IMG/VR virus record: IMGVR_UViG_3300010354_000445
Span: 1 to 28,661 of that record
DNA length: 28,661 bases
Reading direction: 5' to 3' (one strand)
From: a virus
Shown here: piece after piece, positions 608 to 16,502 of the stretch
Position numbering within the stretch: position 1 is the stretch's first letter
Layout: each line of letters starts with the position of its first letter
Notes under the pieces: model-generated
Seen by the model: only the letters and a program-made list of their open reading frames with translations
The model's database searches: none
Told to the model about the DNA's origin: nothing
Translations under genes and position numbers: made by a program

Positions 608-1723
608 TTGTTCGTCGACAATGATTTTCCGAAGCTGCTCGGTGCGGAGTTATACCGTCCCCATCCTGCGTATGTCGTAGAGATGGCAGCTGAGCCGGTG
701 GTTGTTCACGATTTCTCGAAGCAACCCGGCCAGACCGTACAGCTTGATCGTTACCGTTTCTGGGGCAATCCCGGCTCGAAAGAGTCTCGGGAGCGCACTG
801 CTGAGCAGACCATCGGTACTGCTAACAGCCGGAATATCGTCAAGGACAAGGTGCTCGTGACCCTCCGCGAGTACACCGGTCCTGCCGACCCGACTGATCC
901 AACCCAGCCCAGCACCTTTAAGATTGCTCGCGAGACTCTGATCACCGCGCAGCGTCTTCTGCTGGACACCGGCAACCTGACTGCCTTCCACCAGTCGATT
1001 GGTTCGCTGACCCTGCTCGACGACTATCGTCGGTGGCGCGACCGTGTATTCATCAACGAACTGCTGAAAGCCGTCTCTAAAGGCAAGGCTTCCGACAGCC
1101 AAGGTGGATACTACTACCCCGGCGATCTCGCTGTTGGTAGCCTCACCTACGCCAACGCCGAGCAAGCTAAGTTCGACGTTAAGGACGACCTGCTGCGCGT
1201 GGTGAAGAGCCTGCGTAAGCGTAACGTTCCTACCTACCAGGACGGTTTCTATCGCTGCGTTTGCGATCCTACCTTCCTGATGCACCTGCGTCAGAACAGC
1301 GACTTCCGTGAAGTTGCTCGTTACCCTGGCAATGGTCAGATCAACCCGCTCATGTCGGCGATGCAGCCTAACGCTGCTATCTACATGGGTCAGGGCTTCG
1401 GTCAAGCCACCTTTGTGGCGGGTGAGCCGATCATGCCCACCGGTTTCGTGTTTGAAGGCGTGCGATTCTTCGAATCCACCAACATGCCTACTCAAACCGC
1501 AACCGCAACCATCGCTGGTACCAATAAGTCTTACGACACCGCGATTGGTATGTTCTTCGGTCCCCAGAGCGTGGGCGTCGGTATCGGCGGCAACAACGCT
1601 CAGGTGCTCCTGAACAACAACGACGACTTCAGCCGTTTCATCATGATGATTTGGAGCCTGTACGCAGGTTTCGAACTTCTGAACGCTGATTTCGCCACCA
1701 TCGGCTACTCCTTTAGCGCTTGA
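608..1723 (+). CDS. Probable major capsid protein
   Basis: A 371-residue soluble protein without signal peptide or membrane segment. Its size, the start of the virion block and its codon choice suggest the main shell protein: it prefers CTG, CGT, AAC, GAC and TTC, unlike the TTA/AAT-rich genes further along, as expected for the most abundant product. Visible landmarks are an early VTLREYTGP strand (about residues 84-92) and an Arg-rich helix LDDYRRWRDR (about 137-146), a layout reminiscent of capsid proteins that assemble without obvious proteolysis (N4 gp56-like). That family assignment is from memory of the pattern and is weak. Translation starts at TTG behind a strong ribosome site. The next gene follows after 14 bases with its own GAGGAGGT site, and the two probably share a transcript ended by the hairpin at 2637. 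Confidence 0.6.
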   Translation: MFVDNDFPKLLGAELYRPHPAYVVEMAAEPVVVHDFSKQPGQTVQLDRYRFWGNPGSKESRERTAEQTIGTANSRNIVKDKVLVTLREYTGPADPTDPTQPSTFKIARETLITAQRLLLDTGNLTAFHQSIGSLTLLDDYRRWRDRVFINELLKAVSKGKASDSQGGYYYPGDLAVGSLTYANAEQAKFDVKDDLLRVVKSLRKRNVPTYQDGFYRCVCDPTFLMHLRQNSDFREVARYPGNGQINPLMSAMQPNAAIYMGQGFGQATFVAGEPIMPTGFVFEGVRFFESTNMPTQTATATIAGTNKSYDTAIGMFFGPQSVGVGIGGNNAQVLLNNNDDFSRFIMMIWSLYAGFELLNADFATIGYSFSA

Positions 1724-3182: not shown

Positions 3183-3815
3183 GTGTCTCAGCTCCTGACC
3201 TCTCAGCTTCAGCAAATCGAGAGATTTCTCGCTGAGCAAGGGGTCATTTTTACTGACCAGATAACAGACGCAACTAAACGCGAAGTTGTATATGCAGCAG
3301 TAAATCAATTAACCCGTAACGGTTTTGAAACAGAAAGTCATGCTTTATGTCAGTATGATTTTGATCGTGTCTGTTATCACTTAAATTACAATATAGCTTC
3401 GGTTGATCCTGCCGATTACTCTCGATTACTAGAAGCTTGTAATAACATTCCTAGTGAATTTTATTACGGTAAAGTTGTAGAGCAGATACAACGCTGCGAG
3501 ACAGCAGAACCCCTCTGTGAGCTAGCTAATAATCGCGCTACTAATCGTCAAGAAATAATTTTGGGTGACGGTACTGAAATCTTGAATCGTTCTATCGCGA
3601 TTCAAGATAAACGTGTTGTTGCCCGCCTGTGGCGAGAAAACTATTTATTCGAATGTGACCGATTGTCTCACATTCTTCATGTCGTTAATTATAAAGATCC
3701 GGTAATAGCCCAGTCCCGTTTTATCGAGACTGAGGGAGATTTTATTCAGGGTTATCCTGGTCCTCCTAATCCCGCTTTGGCGGATGATTTGTATTTTTCT
3801 ACCAATTGGCACTAA
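3183..3815 (+). CDS. Virion-block protein, first of a tandem paralogous pair
   Basis: 210 residues, GTG start; the ribosome site is weak and lies in the preceding stem-loop. It is a mostly helical, charged soluble protein. Blocks shared in order with the next gene are: QLQQIERFLAEQG-like N-terminus, DATKRE with a following AxNQLxRN, the YHLxYNIA block, DYSRLxxACNxIPSE, RATxRQExILGD, IQDKRxxARxWRENYxFExDRL, and a C-terminal YFxTNW. The two genes are 30 bases apart on the same strand, so they arose by tandem duplication. Codon use here is more AT-rich than in the copy. The size and position in the head block would suit a head-tail connector or neck subunit, but no known connector motif is recognised. 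Confidence 0.55.
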   Translation: MSQLLTSQLQQIERFLAEQGVIFTDQITDATKREVVYAAVNQLTRNGFETESHALCQYDFDRVCYHLNYNIASVDPADYSRLLEACNNIPSEFYYGKVVEQIQRCETAEPLCELANNRATNRQEIILGDGTEILNRSIAIQDKRVVARLWRENYLFECDRLSHILHVVNYKDPVIAQSRFIETEGDFIQGYPGPPNPALADDLYFSTNWH

Positions 3816-3845: not shown

Positions 3846-4466
3846 GTGGCTGATTTAACTACGCAAGAATTAGAACAGATCCAGAGTTATTTAGCTCAGC
3901 AGGGTATTGTTTTTCAACCGGATACGGTTGATGGTACTAAACGTGAAATAATATACGCAACGATTAATCAGCTTGCCAGAAACCCTGCCCAGGTTTTCGG
4001 CTATCGTTTAGACGATTTTAACTTTAGTCGTGTCGCGTATCATCTTGGGTACAACATAGCCACGGTTCCTGCTGGCGATTATTCCCGCTTGATGCAGGCT
4101 TGCAACAGTATTCCCAGCGAAGTTTACGTCGATAAAATTGTGCAGCAGATTGAGCGCTGTGAAGAAGCAGAGCGTCTAACTGAACTTGCAACTGGGCGTG
4201 CCACAAGTCGTCAAGAAACGATTTTGGGTGACGTTAACCGCTCCATCAATATCCAAGACAAACGCGAAACAGCTCGTATCTGGCGCGAGAATTATGTGTT
4301 TGAAACGGATCGTTTGGCCCAAATGTTGTACGTGGCTAACTATCGGAACCCGGTAACAAACAGATATCGGTTTGAACGTAGCGGAGCTTCATTCGTTCAG
4401 GCTATTCCGGGACCTCCTACAGCATCTCGTGCTGATCGAATTTATTTTTATACGAACTGGCGCTAG
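3846..4466 (+). CDS. Virion-block protein, second of a tandem paralogous pair
   Basis: 206 residues from GTG 3846 behind GGGAG. It shares the length, block order and C-terminal YFYTNW end of the preceding gene, at roughly half identity by eye. It is shorter by a few residues because the insertion after ILGD (DGTEILN in the first copy) is missing here. Retention of both copies suggests they form a hetero-oligomer or fill successive rings of the same structure. Function is not recognised; a connector or neck role is inferred from position only. Confidence 0.55.
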   Translation: MADLTTQELEQIQSYLAQQGIVFQPDTVDGTKREIIYATINQLARNPAQVFGYRLDDFNFSRVAYHLGYNIATVPAGDYSRLMQACNSIPSEVYVDKIVQQIERCEEAERLTELATGRATSRQETILGDVNRSINIQDKRETARIWRENYVFETDRLAQMLYVANYRNPVTNRYRFERSGASFVQAIPGPPTASRADRIYFYTNWR

Positions 4467-8588: not shown

Positions 8589-9259
8589 CTTCAACACCTG
8601 TTGTTCTTCTTCTTAAACGTTCGGGTCAATCTTCGGACAGACCTAGTGGAACTGTTGTTCAAAACGGTGAACTAGCTCTTGCTTTTGGCGCTTCAGATCC
8701 GGGTCTCTATTTCGAAGATTCTGCTGGTTCGATCCGTAAACTCGGCCCCAATCACTACGGAACTACAGCCCCTAACTCCTCTCCAGTCGGTCTAGCCGGG
8801 AATTCAATTGGGGAGACTTGGGTAGATAGTTCTACGACAAATTACTATTTAAAAGTATGGAACGGTACAGCGTGGGTCAAGGGAGGCGCCGGGTTTGCCG
8901 ATTCCGCTACCACTGCCGGATCGGCTACAACAGCTGGCGTTGCTAATAGTGCTGTTGTAGCCTCAGGGGCCTTAGTAGCTTCTGGTTGCATTACCGCATC
9001 TGGTGCTTTAATGGCCTCCGGTTGTATATCTGCGTCGGGTGCTCGAATGGCATCCGGGTGCATTTTGGCCTCGGGAGCTATTTCAGCTTCAGGGTGTATA
9101 ACTGCGTCAGGAGCAGTTAGCGCAGCTACTGTTGTTTTGAGCGGATTACCTTCTCCCGCAAATTATCCTTCAGGAGCACTTTTTTATCAAATACAGTCCT
9201 CCGGAGTCTTCGCTGCCGGTCTTTATATCCAAGCGACGGGAGCGTGGCTTCTGACTTAA
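8585..9259 (+). CDS. Tail-fibre protein with Cys-alternating hexapeptide repeat
   Basis: 224 residues; the start overlaps the preceding stop (ATGA). Residues 1-60 have the look of a phage fibre N-terminal module (RSG..., NGELALAFG, GLYFEDSAGSIRKLGP). Residues 75-100 form a GETWVDSSTTNYYLKVWNG unit, of the same kind as three units in the fibre gene at 17056. Residues 126-179 are nine hexapeptides beginning ASG, and residues 180-224 are a small C-terminal domain (PSGALFYQI, GLYIQATGAW). A trimeric adhesin or fibre is likely. Its stop codon overlaps the stop of the opposite-strand gene (TTAA at 9256-9259). Confidence 0.65.
   Translation: MTSTPVVLLLKRSGQSSDRPSGTVVQNGELALAFGASDPGLYFEDSAGSIRKLGPNHYGTTAPNSSPVGLAGNSIGETWVDSSTTNYYLKVWNGTAWVKGGAGFADSATTAGSATTAGVANSAVVASGALVASGCITASGALMASGCISASGARMASGCILASGAISASGCITASGAVSAATVVLSGLPSPANYPSGALFYQIQSSGVFAAGLYIQATGAWLLT
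8960..9121 (+). repeat. Nine hexapeptide repeats (ASGAxx / ASGCxx)
   Basis: Nine in-frame 18-base units encode ASG followed alternately by Ala or Cys, so four Cys recur every 12 residues. The ASG codons differ in nearly every unit, so the repeat is exact in protein but scrambled in DNA. Confidence 0.85.
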
Positions 9260-9801
9260 TTTCTAAGTGTTGACTTTAGGAACCACGCTGCTTTAAACAT
9301 CATTCCAACTAATTCGGCCATATAGTTTTCTACGTCAGGGGCCTGCACCTCTTTCGCGGTACATCCAACATCTTTAGCCATCATTCCGCAGGCTTCCAGA
9401 TTTTTTGTATACGTAGTAAGCATCTCCCGCGCTTCGTAAGATTTTACGTGTTTAAATCCTTTGTATGCGGAGCTTAGCCCACGGTCGCACATTGGCATTA
9501 AATAATCCATCGTCCGCACAAATTCAGCTACGGCATCAAACTGATTGATGTGTGCGTCGTACTGTTCTTTTAAAAATTCGTGAACAGGTAAAAACAGAGG
9601 ACCTTCTATATTTAGATGAATTAGGTGAGACTGAGTGTAAAGTTGATTTAAATAGGAAGAAAGCGACACCAATTGAGTGATTAAGTCATCAACCGATGCC
9701 GCTGGTTTTGTCTCAACTTCGCCGACAATCATGCCCTGAGGTTCTGGAGCCCCCTGTGGGACTACAGGCATCCCAGATTCGAATGCGGCGGAGTAAGTCA
9801 T
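9256..9801 (-). CDS. dps: Dps-like mini-ferritin
   Basis: 181 residues in a four-helix pattern. After a 35-residue Pro-rich tail comes the Dps signature HLNIEGPLFLPVHEFLKEQY. Using the spacing known from Listeria Dps (H31, H43, D47, D58, E62), this protein has H62, H74, K78, D89 and E93, so four of five ferroxidase residues are at the right places and the usual Asp is Lys. Dps proteins form 12-subunit cages that oxidise and store iron and protect DNA from peroxide. The flexible N-terminal tail is acidic here rather than basic, so DNA binding through it is doubtful. It lies on the minus strand within the virion genes, 1 base after an HTH gene, with which it probably forms an operon. Protection of phage or host DNA during infection is inferred. 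Confidence 0.75.
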   Translation of the reverse strand: MTYSAAFESGMPVVPQGAPEPQGMIVGEVETKPAASVDDLITQLVSLSSYLNQLYTQSHLIHLNIEGPLFLPVHEFLKEQYDAHINQFDAVAEFVRTMDYLMPMCDRGLSSAYKGFKHVKSYEAREMLTTYTKNLEACGMMAKDVGCTAKEVQAPDVENYMAELVGMMFKAAWFLKSTLRN

Positions 9802-9802
9802 A

Positions 9803-10072
9803 TCAGAAGGAGCAAGCTGCAGCGGTAGAGGTGGCCTCCGCAGTTTCTACTTTAGCGCTAGTCGTGCCTTGAAGATATTCTTCGAGAGCAGACTTGTTCA
9901 CCCGATACAACGACTTTGCGCCGTTAGGTTGCAGGTTCACATACACGCTTTTAGGCCAACCGCCAGGCTGATTTGCTTCGGCGAGTGCGATGCGCTTCCG
10001 AACAAATCCACTACTGCAGTTAAGCAGCTCTGCTGTTTCTGCGATTGTAAGGAGAGTTTTACCGTCCGACAT
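9803..10072 (-). CDS. Small HTH DNA-binding protein (excisionase / HTH_17 type)
   Basis: 89 residues. The first 70 match the MerR-like helix-turn-helix of excisionase-type regulators: LLTIAETAELLNCSSGFVRKRI, a short wing, then SLYRVNKSALEEYL as the closing strand and helix. The last 20 residues are an Ala/Thr-rich tail. Small single-domain members of this type act as repressors, activators or excision factors. The stop is 1 base from the start of the Dps-like gene, so the pair is co-translated and this protein may control it. The start at ATG 10072 has no clear ribosome site. Confidence 0.65.
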   Translation of the reverse strand: MSDGKTLLTIAETAELLNCSSGFVRKRIALAEANQPGGWPKSVYVNLQPNGAKSLYRVNKSALEEYLQGTTSAKVETAEATSTAAACSF

Positions 10073-12691: not shown

Positions 12692-12998
12692 CAAATGGAA
12701 GGCATCTAAACATGAGCGGAAGGTTGAGTTCCATGCTGATGCCCCTTCCGCTAAATATGACTATAAATACCGACAGCGCCGTGATATACGACTAGCCGGT
12801 TCCGTGTGGGCGGAAAGTCCAGCAGACCGATCCTTCCGCCTAGCACGATCGCGAAGGTTTGATCGTATGCGCGGCGGTCCTGTCGGGTTAGGATTCGGTG
12901 AACGTGATACTTACGGGCCCGATAACGATTATGGAACTGTAGAAAGTATTAAACAAATACCCGACCAAGGTTACTATAGAGAGAACAGAATTCAGTAA
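12684..12998 (+). CDS. Arg-rich basic small protein
   Basis: 104 residues; the start overlaps the end of the preceding gene by 8 bases, indicating coupling. The first 70 residues are strongly basic with many Arg and Lys (KHERKVEFH, YKYRQRRDIRLAG, RSRRFDRMRGG), suggesting binding to DNA, RNA or a negatively charged virion surface. The last 50 bases overlap the 3' end of the opposite-strand methyltransferase-like gene, so one of the two ends may be overextended or the genes truly overlap. No family is recognised. Confidence 0.5.
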   Translation: MFNKWKASKHERKVEFHADAPSAKYDYKYRQRRDIRLAGSVWAESPADRSFRLARSRRFDRMRGGPVGLGFGERDTYGPDNDYGTVESIKQIPDQGYYRENRIQ

Positions 12999-13527
12999 TT
13001 CTCTCTTCTGTATTATGTACGGACGGTAAGTAATACACAAAACCATAGCATCTAGTTTTAGGTATAGGAGTTAAATCGACGTTATCTATAAATAATTTTG
13101 GATGTTCTTTTAACACACACAAAGGAAGATCTATGCCTATTTTTTGTGTCGTAATAAGCGCTACTTCACTTGAAGTTAAAAAAATAATACCTTCATCAAA
13201 TTCTTGATGGAGGTATTTTCTATAGGCTTCTTCTAACCAGATGCGTTGAGCGGATTTCTGAAATCTCTTTCGTCTGTGATACAAAAGAGGGTCCGGGGGT
13301 TGCTCCCAACTTGTCAGAAAATCTCGCGGTGGGTATAGATAAATGTTTTTAGCTTTCCATTTTTGATTTAAGCCGTTGTCTTTGTGTGTGTAGTACCTAT
13401 TAGCACTTACGATCGTATTTGCATGTTTACTCGAAGCCGGATCTAGGTCTATTGTTCCTCCGAAGAAAGTCGCTGTTATTGCAGCAACATCTACTGGAGA
13501 AACAAAGTCATAGGTTGCTAGTGGCAT
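12949..13527 (-). CDS. Phage Dam-type adenine methyltransferase relative with altered active site
   Basis: 192 residues resembling phage DNA N6-adenine methyltransferases (PF05869-like). The order is YDFVSP near the start, FFGGTIDLDPAS (residues 21-32, the cofactor-binding part), then ANRYYTHKDNGLNQKW (42-57), and YLYPPRDF (63-70) where family members have the catalytic (N/D)PP(Y/F). Position 65 is Tyr instead of Asn or Asp, and R68 replaces the aromatic. After this the chain is less typical, with an insertion rich in Arg, then GIIFLTSSEVAL and CYGFVYYLP strands at the end. It may be inactive or modify an unusual substrate. It is the last gene of the minus-strand operon, overlapping its predecessor by 20 bases. 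Confidence 0.6.
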   Translation of the reverse strand: MPLATYDFVSPVDVAAITATFFGGTIDLDPASSKHANTIVSANRYYTHKDNGLNQKWKAKNIYLYPPRDFLTSWEQPPDPLLYHRRKRFQKSAQRIWLEEAYRKYLHQEFDEGIIFLTSSEVALITTQKIGIDLPLCVLKEHPKLFIDNVDLTPIPKTRCYGFVYYLPSVHNTEERITEFCSLYSNLGRVFV

Positions 13528-13933
13528 CTTCTAACCTTTTCGCGAGCATATCTTCCGCTAAATTTAAATCTATTACATGCACACTCATCCCTGATTGGTC
13601 AGTCATGACGACAACTGGGGAGTCGTTTTCCTGTTCTTTCTGGATTAAGTTTGTTAGTTTTTTAAAAAATGTAGCTAATTCTGCATTCATTAGCTCCTCA
13701 GCTAATGCCATGTCTTTATGGATATCTGAGAGTGTTAAATACTGGGACTCATCTGGTCGCTGTGGGTGAAAAAAGAGAGCACCAAGTCCCTCTGTATTAC
13801 GAAATTCTGTGTACAGCGTAACTATATCGCCGATAATCATTTTCACAGCATTCATAGAGATTCTGTTCTGAACCTCTGATTTGCTGAAAAGACTCTTAGC
13901 TAAACGCTTTGCTTTTTGATCGAAATCAGGCAT
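13508..13933 (-). CDS. Helical protein of the minus-strand operon, unknown
   Basis: 141 residues from ATG 13933, which overlaps the preceding stop as ATGCCTGA; an in-frame start at 13987 lies inside that gene and is less likely. The chain is helical and charged throughout (FDQKAKRLAKSLFSK, ISMNAVKMIIGDIV, LAEELMNAELATFFKKL), with a short beta pair at the end (SPVVVMTDQSGMSVHVID). No motif is recognised. Its place between an HTH protein and a methyltransferase-like protein suggests a DNA-linked role. Confidence 0.5.
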   Translation of the reverse strand: MPDFDQKAKRLAKSLFSKSEVQNRISMNAVKMIIGDIVTLYTEFRNTEGLGALFFHPQRPDESQYLTLSDIHKDMALAEELMNAELATFFKKLTNLIQKEQENDSPVVVMTDQSGMSVHVIDLNLAEDMLAKRLEDATSNL

Positions 13934-14252
13934 CTTGATAACCAGTGAAGTTTTTCCAGGCGTCAGAAAGAACTCTAGTCGAATCAAATAAAAAATTCGA
14001 GATGTTGTTTTCCGAAGGATCTAGTTTGCAATAATGTCTTCCTTCCACTAAGCCTGATGTGCCTCCTGAAGTTAAACCTTGGTATACTAATTTGTCTATT
14101 ACTACAGGTTGCACCCCTAACCTCGCTGCGACGGCTTTCTTAGATATAAAAGCTGTAGTTACATTACCTGTTTTTGTGTTGGCGAGAATCTGAAGCGATG
14201 TGTCGATGCTCCGAATAATGTCGAGCAACTCTTTTGAAACAACTAAATCCAT
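13926..14252 (-). CDS. HTH-like DNA-binding protein of the minus-strand operon
   Basis: 108 residues from ATG 14252; a TTG at 14276 is possible but poorer. Residues 1-30 are an amphipathic helix that could dimerise. About residues 34-60 show an HTH of excisionase type (AFISKKAVAARLGVQPVVI), followed by GLTSGG, GRHYCKLDP and a closing helix (RVLSDAWKNFTGY). It is the first gene after a 115-base gap between stop and next frame, so it may have its own start of transcription or a long leader. Confidence 0.5.
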   Translation of the reverse strand: MDLVVSKELLDIIRSIDTSLQILANTKTGNVTTAFISKKAVAARLGVQPVVIDKLVYQGLTSGGTSGLVEGRHYCKLDPSENNISNFLFDSTRVLSDAWKNFTGYQDA

Positions 14253-14391
14253 AAGAAATTGAAGTGAGGCCGCCAACTCCCCAGGTACCTGGCAAGTCGG
14301 TTCGCTTACGGGCCGCCGGAAACGAGAAAAACGACAGCCACCTCACAGTACCACCGTTTCGCTCGTTCTTGCCCACGGTGACCTTAAAAGT
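14253..14391 (-). other. Leader within the minus-strand operon with palindrome and hairpin
   Basis: 139 bases without a convincing gene lie between a stop (14392) and the next ATG (14252). They contain a perfect 12-base palindrome, CCAGGTACCTGG, at 14281-14292, and an inverted repeat CACCGT/ACGGTG at 14352-14380 (17-base loop). The palindrome would suit a dimeric regulator and the hairpin could shape the leader RNA. No clear -10 box is seen. Confidence 0.4.
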
Positions 14392-14814
14392 CTAAGGTTC
14401 TCTTAGCCATTGTGTATCAGACAAATCTTTTACAGATGTTAATTTTTTGTTTAGCCCTACCCTTGTTTTTTTCGTTATAGATGGTGTTTCAAATCGAGAG
14501 ACGTGGTGACACGGGTTTACGCAACCTATGGTTCCACATATTCGTTTTAGAGTGTAATTTCCGATATCCGCTTTAAAAAAGCCATAATATACATTTTCTA
14601 TCTTCATTTTATTTCCGTTTACCCTCAAAGTTTTGTACCCAGATTTCCAGCATTTATGGAGATCTGTCTCTTGAACTGTTATTTGTGTGAGTAGGGCTCT
14701 TAGTTCAGGTTCTAGCTTATTTAAATCGGGAAAGAAAACAGGATCATCTATAGTTAATAGACAATCCTGACATACTGTTTGAGTTTTTTTGTGTGTTCTG
14801 TCGCGTAAACACAT
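14392..14814 (-). CDS. Cys/His protein resembling an HNH zinc-loop, without the nuclease HNH
   Basis: 140 residues; the start overlaps the previous stop (ATGA). An N-terminal CxxC (C15, C18) is followed at residues 55-104 by a pattern like the zinc-binding loop of HNH-type homing endonucleases: CWKSGY, then GYFF-like strands, then CGTIGCVNPCHH (C93, C98, N100, P101, H103/H104). The His that should precede the first Cys in active HNH enzymes is absent (RIC instead of HxC). So this is probably a DNA-binding or regulatory relative rather than a nuclease. A related C-x4-C-x-NP-x-H motif is in the first gene of the same operon. Confidence 0.5.
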   Translation of the reverse strand: MCLRDRTHKKTQTVCQDCLLTIDDPVFFPDLNKLEPELRALLTQITVQETDLHKCWKSGYKTLRVNGNKMKIENVYYGFFKADIGNYTLKRICGTIGCVNPCHHVSRFETPSITKKTRVGLNKKLTSVKDLSDTQWLREP

Positions 14815-15233
14815 CAGACAAGAGCTTCTAGCTGAGTAATAAAATCAGCCGGTTCTTCGATTAATAGATTAATTAAAGCATCCACTTTATGGGAAAGTTT
14901 GTCTTCACCTTCCTTTCGTTCATTTAAGAGCAGCCAGTAACTATACGCATTCAATAAATACATGTGTGTTTGTTTAGCTCGAAGAGCTTGCGTCCTCCAT
15001 TTCTCGTACTCGTGGCTTGACTGATGTCGACTACTACCCGTCTTTAATTCGAGTTCCCGAATTTCAATTTGAAGCTCAATATCTTTAATTGTGTACTCGA
15101 TAGACGATATTCGTGCCCTGCACTCGCTGATCGATGCAGGCTGCTGGTTATCGCTATAGATCCATACGGGAAGATTATCGATAATGTACTCTTTATCCCA
15201 AAGACAGGGCTTGGTTTCGGGAGTAAAAGTCAT
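14814..15233 (-). CDS. Coiled-coil protein of the minus-strand operon
   Basis: 139 residues, start and stop both in ATGA overlaps with its neighbours. The N-terminal 30 residues carry several aromatics (CLWDKEYIIDNLPVWIY). Residues 35-75 form a heptad-like charged helix (RISSIEYTIKDIELQIEI, RELELKTG), followed by a second helix rich in Tyr and Leu (KQTHMYLLNAYSYWLLLNE). It could be a dimeric partner of the winged-helix protein just upstream. No family is recognised. Confidence 0.5.
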   Translation of the reverse strand: MTFTPETKPCLWDKEYIIDNLPVWIYSDNQQPASISECRARISSIEYTIKDIELQIEIRELELKTGSSRHQSSHEYEKWRTQALRAKQTHMYLLNAYSYWLLLNERKEGEDKLSHKVDALINLLIEEPADFITQLEALV

Positions 15234-15562
15234 AAACTAAGGGTGTCTCTAATGAGTTTGTTAAAATTACCGTTAAGTACGTAAAGAGTGTGACTCTCAA
15301 AAGAGATCTTTTTAACTAGATCCATTTTTATGAGTTGTTTGAGAGCCCGGAGAAGGCTGTCTTTTGGTAAATACAGCTCACTCCGTATCTCCTTAGTCGA
15401 TAACGGCTGCCTGAAGGTTAGCAGCTGAACTAGATCTTCGTAAAGCCGGATTGCCGAAGCTCTTTTTTTATCAACTGAACCGTCCGTGCTGAGAACGATT
15501 TTCCGTATTTGATTTTGAGCAATCCCAAAATCGTCTGTGTGCTCGCGTTGTTGTTGCTCCAT
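15230..15562 (-). CDS. Winged-helix DNA-binding protein
   Basis: 110 residues. Residues 40-105 have a winged-helix layout of MarR/ArsR type: a first helix (LYEDLVQLLTFRQ), then LSTKEIRSELYLPKDSLLRAL with the recognition helix, then MDLVKKISFESHTLYVLNG as the wing. It is probably a transcriptional regulator. The first 44 residues overlap, in another frame, the last 44 codons of the preceding gene; there is no later ATG, GTG or TTG that keeps the domain intact. So the overlap seems real or the two are joined by a frameshift. Confidence 0.55.
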   Translation of the reverse strand: MEQQQREHTDDFGIAQNQIRKIVLSTDGSVDKKRASAIRLYEDLVQLLTFRQPLSTKEIRSELYLPKDSLLRALKQLIKMDLVKKISFESHTLYVLNGNFNKLIRDTLSL

Positions 15563-16104
15563 TGTTGGATGTCCAGTTTCATCTGTGGGCTCACCTTACG
15601 CGCTGGGCTTTTACCTAGCATCATATGGTAAGGATTTAAACAGAATTGATCGTCGCATGTAGAAAGCACATGATCGTCGGATTTTAACTTGACATTGAAG
15701 AAAACTTGATACACATAGCGTCTAGGACGCAGAAGCTGACCCTTCTCGGCGAACCGCTCAAGGGATTCAGGAAGATAAAGATGCTGAATCTTATTGATGG
15801 CCTTTCGGCGACGGCGGATCCACGCTTCGACCATTTGGGTACGGGAGCGAGCGGATCGCGACTCGTGGACACAAAGAGGGCAAGCGAGCAAGCCTTGAAC
15901 GGGCGACGCCTTCTCCAGGTCCTCAAGGGCTACTGGAATTGGCTCATGTCTTCCACAGGCGCAGTCGAGGACACCTCGCTGACCGAAGACCGCCAGTTCG
16001 AAGTTCCCCAGCTCTCGCCTGCCCTCAGGAGACCCCTCGGGAGGTTCGACGGTAGTGGGTTCAAGGATGCCTAGGTAAGCAGTAAGTAATAAGGATGTAC
16101 TCAT
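15430..16104 (-). CDS. Zinc-binding, HNH-loop-like protein, first gene of the minus-strand operon
   Basis: 224 residues from ATG 16104, chosen because an extended -10 lies at 16127-16135 and a longer version from 16161 would start upstream of it. Residues 48-78 hold CxC and CxxC pairs (DCACG, CPLC) that could bind zinc. A basic stretch follows (AWIRRRRKAINK), and residues 150-160 give CDDQFCLNPYH, the C-x4-C-x-NP-x-H loop of HNH-type homing endonucleases without the preceding His. The C-terminal 45 residues (QMKLDIQQW, STQTILGLL, SARTVQLIKKELR) look like the HTH tail found in such proteins. It is therefore probably a DNA-binding protein derived from a homing-endonuclease fold. Confidence 0.55.
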   Translation of the reverse strand: MSTSLLLTAYLGILEPTTVEPPEGSPEGRRELGNFELAVFGQRGVLDCACGRHEPIPVALEDLEKASPVQGLLACPLCVHESRSARSRTQMVEAWIRRRRKAINKIQHLYLPESLERFAEKGQLLRPRRYVYQVFFNVKLKSDDHVLSTCDDQFCLNPYHMMLGKSPARKVSPQMKLDIQQWSNNNASTQTILGLLKIKYGKSFSARTVQLIKKELRQSGFTKI

Positions 16105-16106
16105 AA

Positions 16107-16135
16107 ACCCGTTATCGGGTGTATCCAGTATAGCA
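16107..16135 (-). promoter_or_regulatory. Extended -10 promoter with inverted repeat for the minus-strand operon
   Basis: Read on the minus strand, TGCTATACT (16135-16127) matches an extended -10 element, with no good -35. A perfect inverted repeat ACCCG-4-CGGGT at 16107-16120 lies at the expected start of transcription and just before the ATG at 16104. This would suit a repressor site or a 5' RNA hairpin. Confidence 0.55.
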
Positions 16136-16161
16136 GAGCGTACACAGCGCACACAGTGCAT

Positions 16162-16502
16162 AGCTCGTCCGTCCGGACCCCTGAAAAGGGATTTTCTATT
16201 TAAGGAGAGTTGGCTTAACGGAAATTTCGCTAGGAGTCCGTGATTTTTAACTTTTTGAACTTAGGCGAATTTCTGGTTAGGCGTAATACTGTATAAATTT
16301 ATTTTAAAGTATATAACTAAGGAAACTCAGAACGAAATTCTCGTTAAGTTTGCGGCCCTGAGACCTGTTTAGTGAGTAGCAGCCGCCAGAGTAACGACGT
16401 GGAACCCGGTATCCACTAATAGATAGCACGACTAAGAGCCCTCTTGGCATTTCTTAAGCATTGCTGTTAGTATGACGGCATACAGTGTTTTAAGGATTCG
16501 GA
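16162..16502 (+). other. Non-coding region between divergent transcription units, hairpin-rich
   Basis: 341 bases with no convincing reading frame on either strand. TATAAATT at 16292-16299 is one base from the T4-type late promoter TATAAATA. Three short perfect inverted repeats follow in order: AACGA/TCGTT (16331-16345), GCGGC/GCCGC (16352-16386, a 25-base loop) and GTGGA/TCCAC (16399-16416). The stretch 16331-16416 could be a structured leader or a small RNA. No tRNA consensus box was found. Confidence 0.4.

Follow-up and report, generated by a model that had tools for sequence, protein, structure and literature searches.

The closest described relative of the locus considered here is the minus-strand gene cluster AHV82253 to AHV82249 of Synechococcus phage S-EIV1 (KJ410740), in which every gene except a dCTP deaminase is annotated as hypothetical. 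The window, by which we mean the whole 28.7-kb virus contig that was analysed (IMG/VR record IMGVR_UViG_3300010354_000445, 28,661 nucleotides), carries a comparable minus-strand operon of seven genes, lettered G, F, E, D, C, B and A in transcription order. The gap between D and C holds what its alignment indicates is a new structured RNA, and this RNA is the main fact to be added to the original prediction, in which the operon was first described. Both clusters are antisense, their distance downstream of the capsid gene is similar, and S-EIV1 has homologues of A and B and a distant homologue of C. The S-EIV1 cluster differs in that no G, E or RNA was found in it, in that it contains an extra gene (AHV82252) and in that the dCTP deaminase gene comes last; a relative of D and G (AHV82135) lies elsewhere in the S-EIV1 genome.

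Parts of the operon also resemble other known systems. The product of A shares with the phage N6-adenine methyltransferases (PF05869, PHROG 111, TIGR01712) the S-adenosylmethionine (SAM) motif and the overall domain, and the RNA shares with the cis-regulatory RNAs of Rfam an apparent leader position and a pseudoknot. The best fold match of B, a weak one, is CcmS, a beta-carboxysome assembly chaperone (PMC11635287) from cyanobacteria, the likely host group. Finally, Grishin (2001, as cited in PMC4999995) described the Smad MH1 domain as a degraded homing endonuclease. Like MH1, G would be a retired His-Me finger that has kept its zinc-loop residues and lost the nuclease residue, and DNA binding is proposed for it.

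The capsid gene of the window (608-1723) encodes a product that is 68% identical to the S-EIV1 capsid protein, its sole match among 50,697 phage records. In IMG/VR at least 591 stretches match the same protein, which is 92-96% identical to the best 80 of them. The window also contains speD and a Dps-like gene, and S-EIV1 has homologues of both. Because of the capsid similarity and these two common genes, the window is assigned to the S-EIV1-like cyanophages, and by analogy with S-EIV1 the host group is likely to be the cyanobacteria. A search of bacterial genomes with A gave short, weak matches only and revealed no host or prophage source.

All seven open reading frames originally placed on the minus strand between 16104 and 12949 were confirmed, and the operon is real and strongly conserved. 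A search with an alignment of A retrieved 80 IMG/VR loci. The close clade comprises 53 sources with the window counted in, and 49 of these have the whole block, with gene order and antisense orientation unchanged; in the remaining four it was cut by contig ends. Twenty of the 49 intact blocks were counted with D and 29 without it, the latter tally including one locus (L116) that was misread, as D is present there by tblastn and it is G that is cut by the contig end. The late genes flanking the operon are identical in kind across the close-clade sources. Co-conservation had been set beforehand as one of the points on which the proposed operon would stand or fall, and the same gene order in 49 sources shows that the arrangement is not due to chance. 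The neighbourhood search thus finds the operon recurring across S-EIV1-like relatives; no DNA similarity of the operon region to known phages was detected and, as the original prediction had supposed, no named module matched the set. Gene A was also present in all 18 capsid-bearing records that extend at least 12.7 kb downstream of the capsid gene, out of 43 records found through the capsid. Among the records found in this way it was missing solely where the contig stops sooner, and one further record (G004) carries A near its other end. The distant clade that includes S-EIV1 keeps A, B and a distant C, with the dCTP deaminase gene last.

Two variations in the layout were seen. One subclade has an extra gene of about 92 codons between B and A (L129, 9736-10017; L130, 9736-10014). 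In four loci of the S-EIV1-like clade (L141, L152, L161 and L086) the last gene of the A-B operon is the one for dCTP deaminase, which may connect A functionally with nucleotide metabolism.

The start of G (15430-16104) at 16104 is upheld by a relative (L003) that has a stop codon just 5' of the same methionine. The first 133 bases of F (15230-15562) overlap the end of G (15430-15562), exactly as first noted, and the overlap is 112-205 bases long in relatives. Between the window and the relative L088 there are 17 substitutions in the 133 bases of the overlap, 161 in the 542 bases of G alone and 32 in the 200 bases of F alone. As substitutions are fewer in the overlap than in either gene alone, both frames appear to be constrained there, which would make this a long same-strand dual-coding stretch. 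The other junctions in the window are F/E (-4), E/D (-1), C/B (-8) and B/A (-20). The compact overlaps first described therefore hold at these junctions and at G/F. However, they do not extend to D and C, which are separated by 139 bases.

It is this gap between D (14392-14814) and C (13926-14252) that contains the structured RNA (14253-14391, minus strand; 139 bases as modelled, with a predicted 5' end near 14382). Where D is missing, a gap of about 123-147 bases lies between E and C instead. An alignment of 33 gap sequences supports a layout in which hairpin P1 is followed by a closing stem, P0, that encloses hairpins P2 and P3. P1 (14352-14380) pairs CACCGT (14380-14375) with ACGGTG (14357-14352), and P0 (14264-14346) pairs GTGAGG (14346-14341) with CCTCAC (14269-14264). 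In P2 (14311-14339), GGCTGTCG pairs with CGGCGGCC, and P3 (14276-14297) has conserved tandem U-G/G-U wobble pairs. The loops of P1 (AACGAG, 14367-14362) and P2 (CTCGTT, 14326-14321) are predicted to pair with each other in a 6-bp kissing helix. In all 33 sequences this helix is fully paired, one position being occupied variously by C-G, G-C, A-U and U-A, and RNAalifold, unaided, picked both the loop-loop helix and P3. For the structure as a whole, 91.4% of cells are paired and 27 of the 31 pairs show changes on both sides in at least one place; its covariation score of 0.715 compares with 0.207 for shuffled and at most 0.166 for slid alignments. The unpaired bases AAGAA, UUUU and GUAA are conserved. 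Single-sequence folding is unremarkable (z -1.5), so that the structure is shown by the alignment alone.

With a covariance model, the RNA was detected in 51 sources, in each locus as a single strong hit that invariably precedes C. Of 29 IMG/VR stretches returned by an independent scan with a DNA pattern, 27 have the same RNA in the same operon; an earlier RNA pattern search was too strict and matched unrelated contigs. The RNA is absent from ten distant-clade records and from S-EIV1. No family in Rfam 15 matched it at the gathering threshold, and a DNA similarity search against known phages gave chance fragments only. It differs from the RNAs in that library, where P1 followed by P0 around P2 and P3, with a P1-P2 kissing helix, was not found.

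The RNA appears to have its own promoter. A putative -10 hexamer, TAGACT (14389-14394, minus strand), overlaps the stop codon of D, and a TANNNT hexamer (TAGACT, TAAACT, TAAAAT and others) is present in 35 of 35 relatives at -21 to -26 from an anchor in the P1 loop, ending about 7 bases before P1. In one subclade the hexamer runs across the stop codon that ends the upstream gene and in the other it lies upstream of the stop codon in another register. As the register differs between subclades, what is constrained is the hexamer rather than the stop codon. This suggests an apparent second promoter at the end of D (or E), from which transcription would start at the foot of P1. The RNA, whose 3' end is some 10 to 25 bases short of the C start codon, would then form the 5' leader of C-B-A and, as such, may set their level of output.

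The promoter-like hexamer could instead belong to a stable non-coding RNA, such as a decoy, a trans-acting regulator, a ribozyme or an antitermination element, that is bound or regulated by the flanking proteins. The compact fold with its loop-loop helix, conserved unpaired bases and tandem wobbles would suit such an RNA, as would its constant position between D or E and C even where D is missing. However, no clear terminator separates the RNA from C, C always lies directly 3' of the RNA, and a relative without the RNA still keeps C-B-A, so we consider a stable non-coding RNA doubtful. That relative (L106, 9180-9300) is close to the window, has kept G-F-E-C-B-A with a gap of 31 bases in place of the RNA and offers a natural comparison case.

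The leader would be served by the second of two promoters. The first, at the head of the operon, had been recognised originally as an extended -10 element (TGCTATACT, 16127-16135, minus strand) and proved to be real and strongly conserved. Within 60 bases before G, TGNTANNNT occurs in 26 of 33 non-redundant relatives (shuffles: mean 2.8, maximum 9) and TGCTANNNT in 23 of 33 (shuffles: mean 1.4, maximum 5), mostly 30-41 bases before the start of G. TGCTATNCT occurs once in each of two long relatives (82 and 86 kb), at the G promoter. A scan for consensus sigma-70 promoters missed this site; it was conservation rather than consensus score that exposed it. The inverted repeat ACCCG-ATAA-CGGGT (16120-16107), noted at the same place, although present in the window, is not evident in relatives and is given no weight. 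Repeats resembling CTGTGCGCT near the G promoter (16140-16190, minus strand, in the window, and in many lineages) were considered as an operator, but they occur elsewhere in the genomes and no claim is made for them.

Three related genomes yielded no sigma factor, in a search that detected its positive controls, and no T7-type polymerase was found in the same genomes by a PF00940 search that had no positive control. Because neither a phage sigma factor nor a single-subunit polymerase was found there, host RNA polymerase is the likely reader of both promoters.

The products of the operon mostly resemble DNA-binding proteins. G contains a zinc ribbon (C48, C50, C75 and C78 are invariant), a His-Me/HNH-like zinc loop and a C-terminal helix-turn-helix (HTH). 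D, a distant paralogue of G (hhalign probability 91.8, E 7e-7), has a zinc CxxC and an HNH-like loop and is absent in one subclade. The zinc loop, C-x4-C-x-N-P-x-H, is invariant in G and D. We take the catalytic histidine of active His-Me nucleases to be two residues before the first cysteine (H-x-C-x4-C). The residue at this place, located without alignment to a solved nuclease, is never histidine in any G or D loop; a PF05551 genome search returned no reference nuclease for aligning the catalytic histidine. PF05551 itself gave weak matches in 4 of 39 G members. The structure predicted for G (pLDDT 87) has matches among viral HNH proteins (E 5.8e-5 to 1e-3, probability about 1.0), with low whole-chain TM-scores. 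Its top matches in the PDB are Smad MH1 domains (E 0.07, probability 0.85, TM 0.22-0.39), with I-PpoI lower, and all of these are weak. G differs from Smad MH1 in having no detectable sequence similarity to it and in its extra zinc ribbon and HTH, so that the likeness is one of weak structural match. A sequence search with the D profile against solved structures gave chance matches only. As the presumed catalytic histidine is absent from every loop, G and D are probably catalytically dead HNH-like proteins. The earlier description of both as HNH-loop proteins is thus borne out for the zinc loop and, in the model of G, for the fold, although the presumed catalytic residue is missing.

Resemblance to HNH nucleases, together with the occasional absence of D, might instead suggest a homing-endonuclease mobile cassette that has captured its neighbours. 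This is extremely improbable, as the location is fixed in all contigs examined, the presumed catalytic histidine is lost in every copy and the block shows no pattern of insertion and empty sites.

A (12949-13527), a homologue of S-EIV1 AHV82250, is a derivative of the Dam-family N6-adenine methyltransferases, with a profile match to the JSF10 enzyme (probability 97.5). The SAM-binding motif IDLDPASS is invariant in all A proteins. However, the catalytic motif is altered, to YPPR in the window and to [YF]PP[RSKHN] in all 81 sequences (59 distinct), where phage N6-adenine methyltransferases have [DN]PP[YFW]; [DN]PPY was never seen. A also scores under the curated cut-offs (PF05869, 26.0 bits against 28.1; TIGR01712, 18.5 against 97.05), and a sequence search of its profile against solved structures gave chance matches only. 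As motif IV is altered throughout, A is probably a catalytically dead methyltransferase, and the label methyltransferase-like holds for its family and SAM motif and fails at the catalytic motif. The kept SAM motif and the relationship to the Dam and phage enzymes would also be expected if A were an active adenine methyltransferase in a DNA-modification or restriction-evasion module. We regard this as very improbable in view of motif IV, since related enzymes of Vibrio, Anabaena and Nostoc phages keep its asparagine (NPPY or NPPG). The loss of motif IV therefore makes the methylation-based defence evasion suggested earlier unlikely. PADLOC gave only weak, uninformative matches for the operon proteins, and neither it nor NCBIfam returned anything convincing for defence or counter-defence.

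Of the remaining products, F is a winged-helix protein, as first proposed, with profile matches of MarR/TrmB/Lrs14 type. E (14814-15233), the best conserved product of the set, looks helical and has 14 invariant columns in 32 sequences. The HTH assigned to C is supported by distant homology to S-EIV1 AHV82253 (hhalign probability 87, E 4e-6). B (13508-13933) is an alpha/beta protein homologous to S-EIV1 AHV82251, and its structure model (pLDDT 86) has a weak best match to the helices and four strands of CcmS (E 0.038, probability 0.95, TM 0.39-0.46, root mean square deviation 7.8). With E 0.04, TM about 0.4 and no sequence similarity, B differs from CcmS and membership is not claimed. This match, the weak structural similarity between the C-terminal part of G and a small-terminase HTH and the position of the operon among late genes could point to a late assembly or packaging module, in which B is a chaperone, packaging involves the HNH-like and HTH proteins and the antisense orientation is accidental. 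However, the operon lies on the strand opposite to the late genes, has its own promoters and at its 3' end overlaps the convergent neighbouring late gene (by 50 bases in the window), and such a module seems improbable.

Taken together, the data point to a regulatory operon of S-EIV1-like cyanophages that would be transcribed by host RNA polymerase and whose C-B-A part would have a structured leader. We favour this because the operon has its own promoters, encodes products that look DNA-binding, is antisense to the late genes and is conserved across the clade, and we would give it an even chance of being correct. G, F, D and C would act as sequence-specific DNA binders, G perhaps by an MH1-like route in which a retired homing endonuclease serves as a DNA reader, while A would sense or use SAM without methylating DNA. 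The output of the operon would be control of the transcription programme of the phage (or the host), and the operon would be expressed apart from the late genes on the opposite strand. The control module first envisaged is thus favoured by the co-conserved antisense operon, its own promoter and the DNA-binding-like proteins, whereas its early action and its targets are surmised. Several points weigh against a regulatory operon: the RNA may be a trans-acting regulator or a ribozyme and not a leader, the loss of enzyme activity is deduced from motifs, the Smad MH1 match of G is weak (E 0.07, TM 0.2-0.4), the weak CcmS match of B need not point to transcription and the negative PF00940 result comes from a search without a positive control. 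More tentatively, the kissing-loop RNA could represent a regulatory RNA of a new class, riboswitch-like or bound by protein. Together with relics of a SAM-binding methyltransferase and of MH1-like nucleases it would make up an undescribed phage control circuit. We consider this possible rather than probable.

In addition to the operon, the window has a second antisense pair within the late genes (9256-10072, minus strand), encoding a Dps/ferritin-like protein and a small HTH protein and conserved in about 25 related loci. Tandem paralogues beside the capsid genes (3183-3815 and 3846-4466) have single-place matches in S-EIV1 and several relatives. The capsid gene of S-EIV1 itself seems to be mis-annotated (L086, 30785-32011, equivalent to KJ410740.1, 60784-62010). 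One open frame at this locus matches the window capsid protein over 99%, where KJ410740.1 lists a minus-strand gene for the first half (AHV82227) and a truncated plus-strand gene for the rest (AHV82228).

The S-EIV1-like phages are a widespread group: relatives of the capsid protein are encoded in at least 591 IMG/VR stretches, and the group accounted for 3.3% of the cyanophage signal in one ocean survey (PMC5332604). They seem to be without a sigma factor or T7-type polymerase of their own, which puts in question how their gene expression is ordered, and the operon supplies candidate regulators, promoters and a covarying RNA for direct testing. The RNA adds to the known repertoire a structured RNA that is absent from Rfam. 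If the proposed roles are true, the operon would be a phage case in which the folds of nucleases and methyltransferases have come to serve as DNA readers, as has been proposed for animal Smads.

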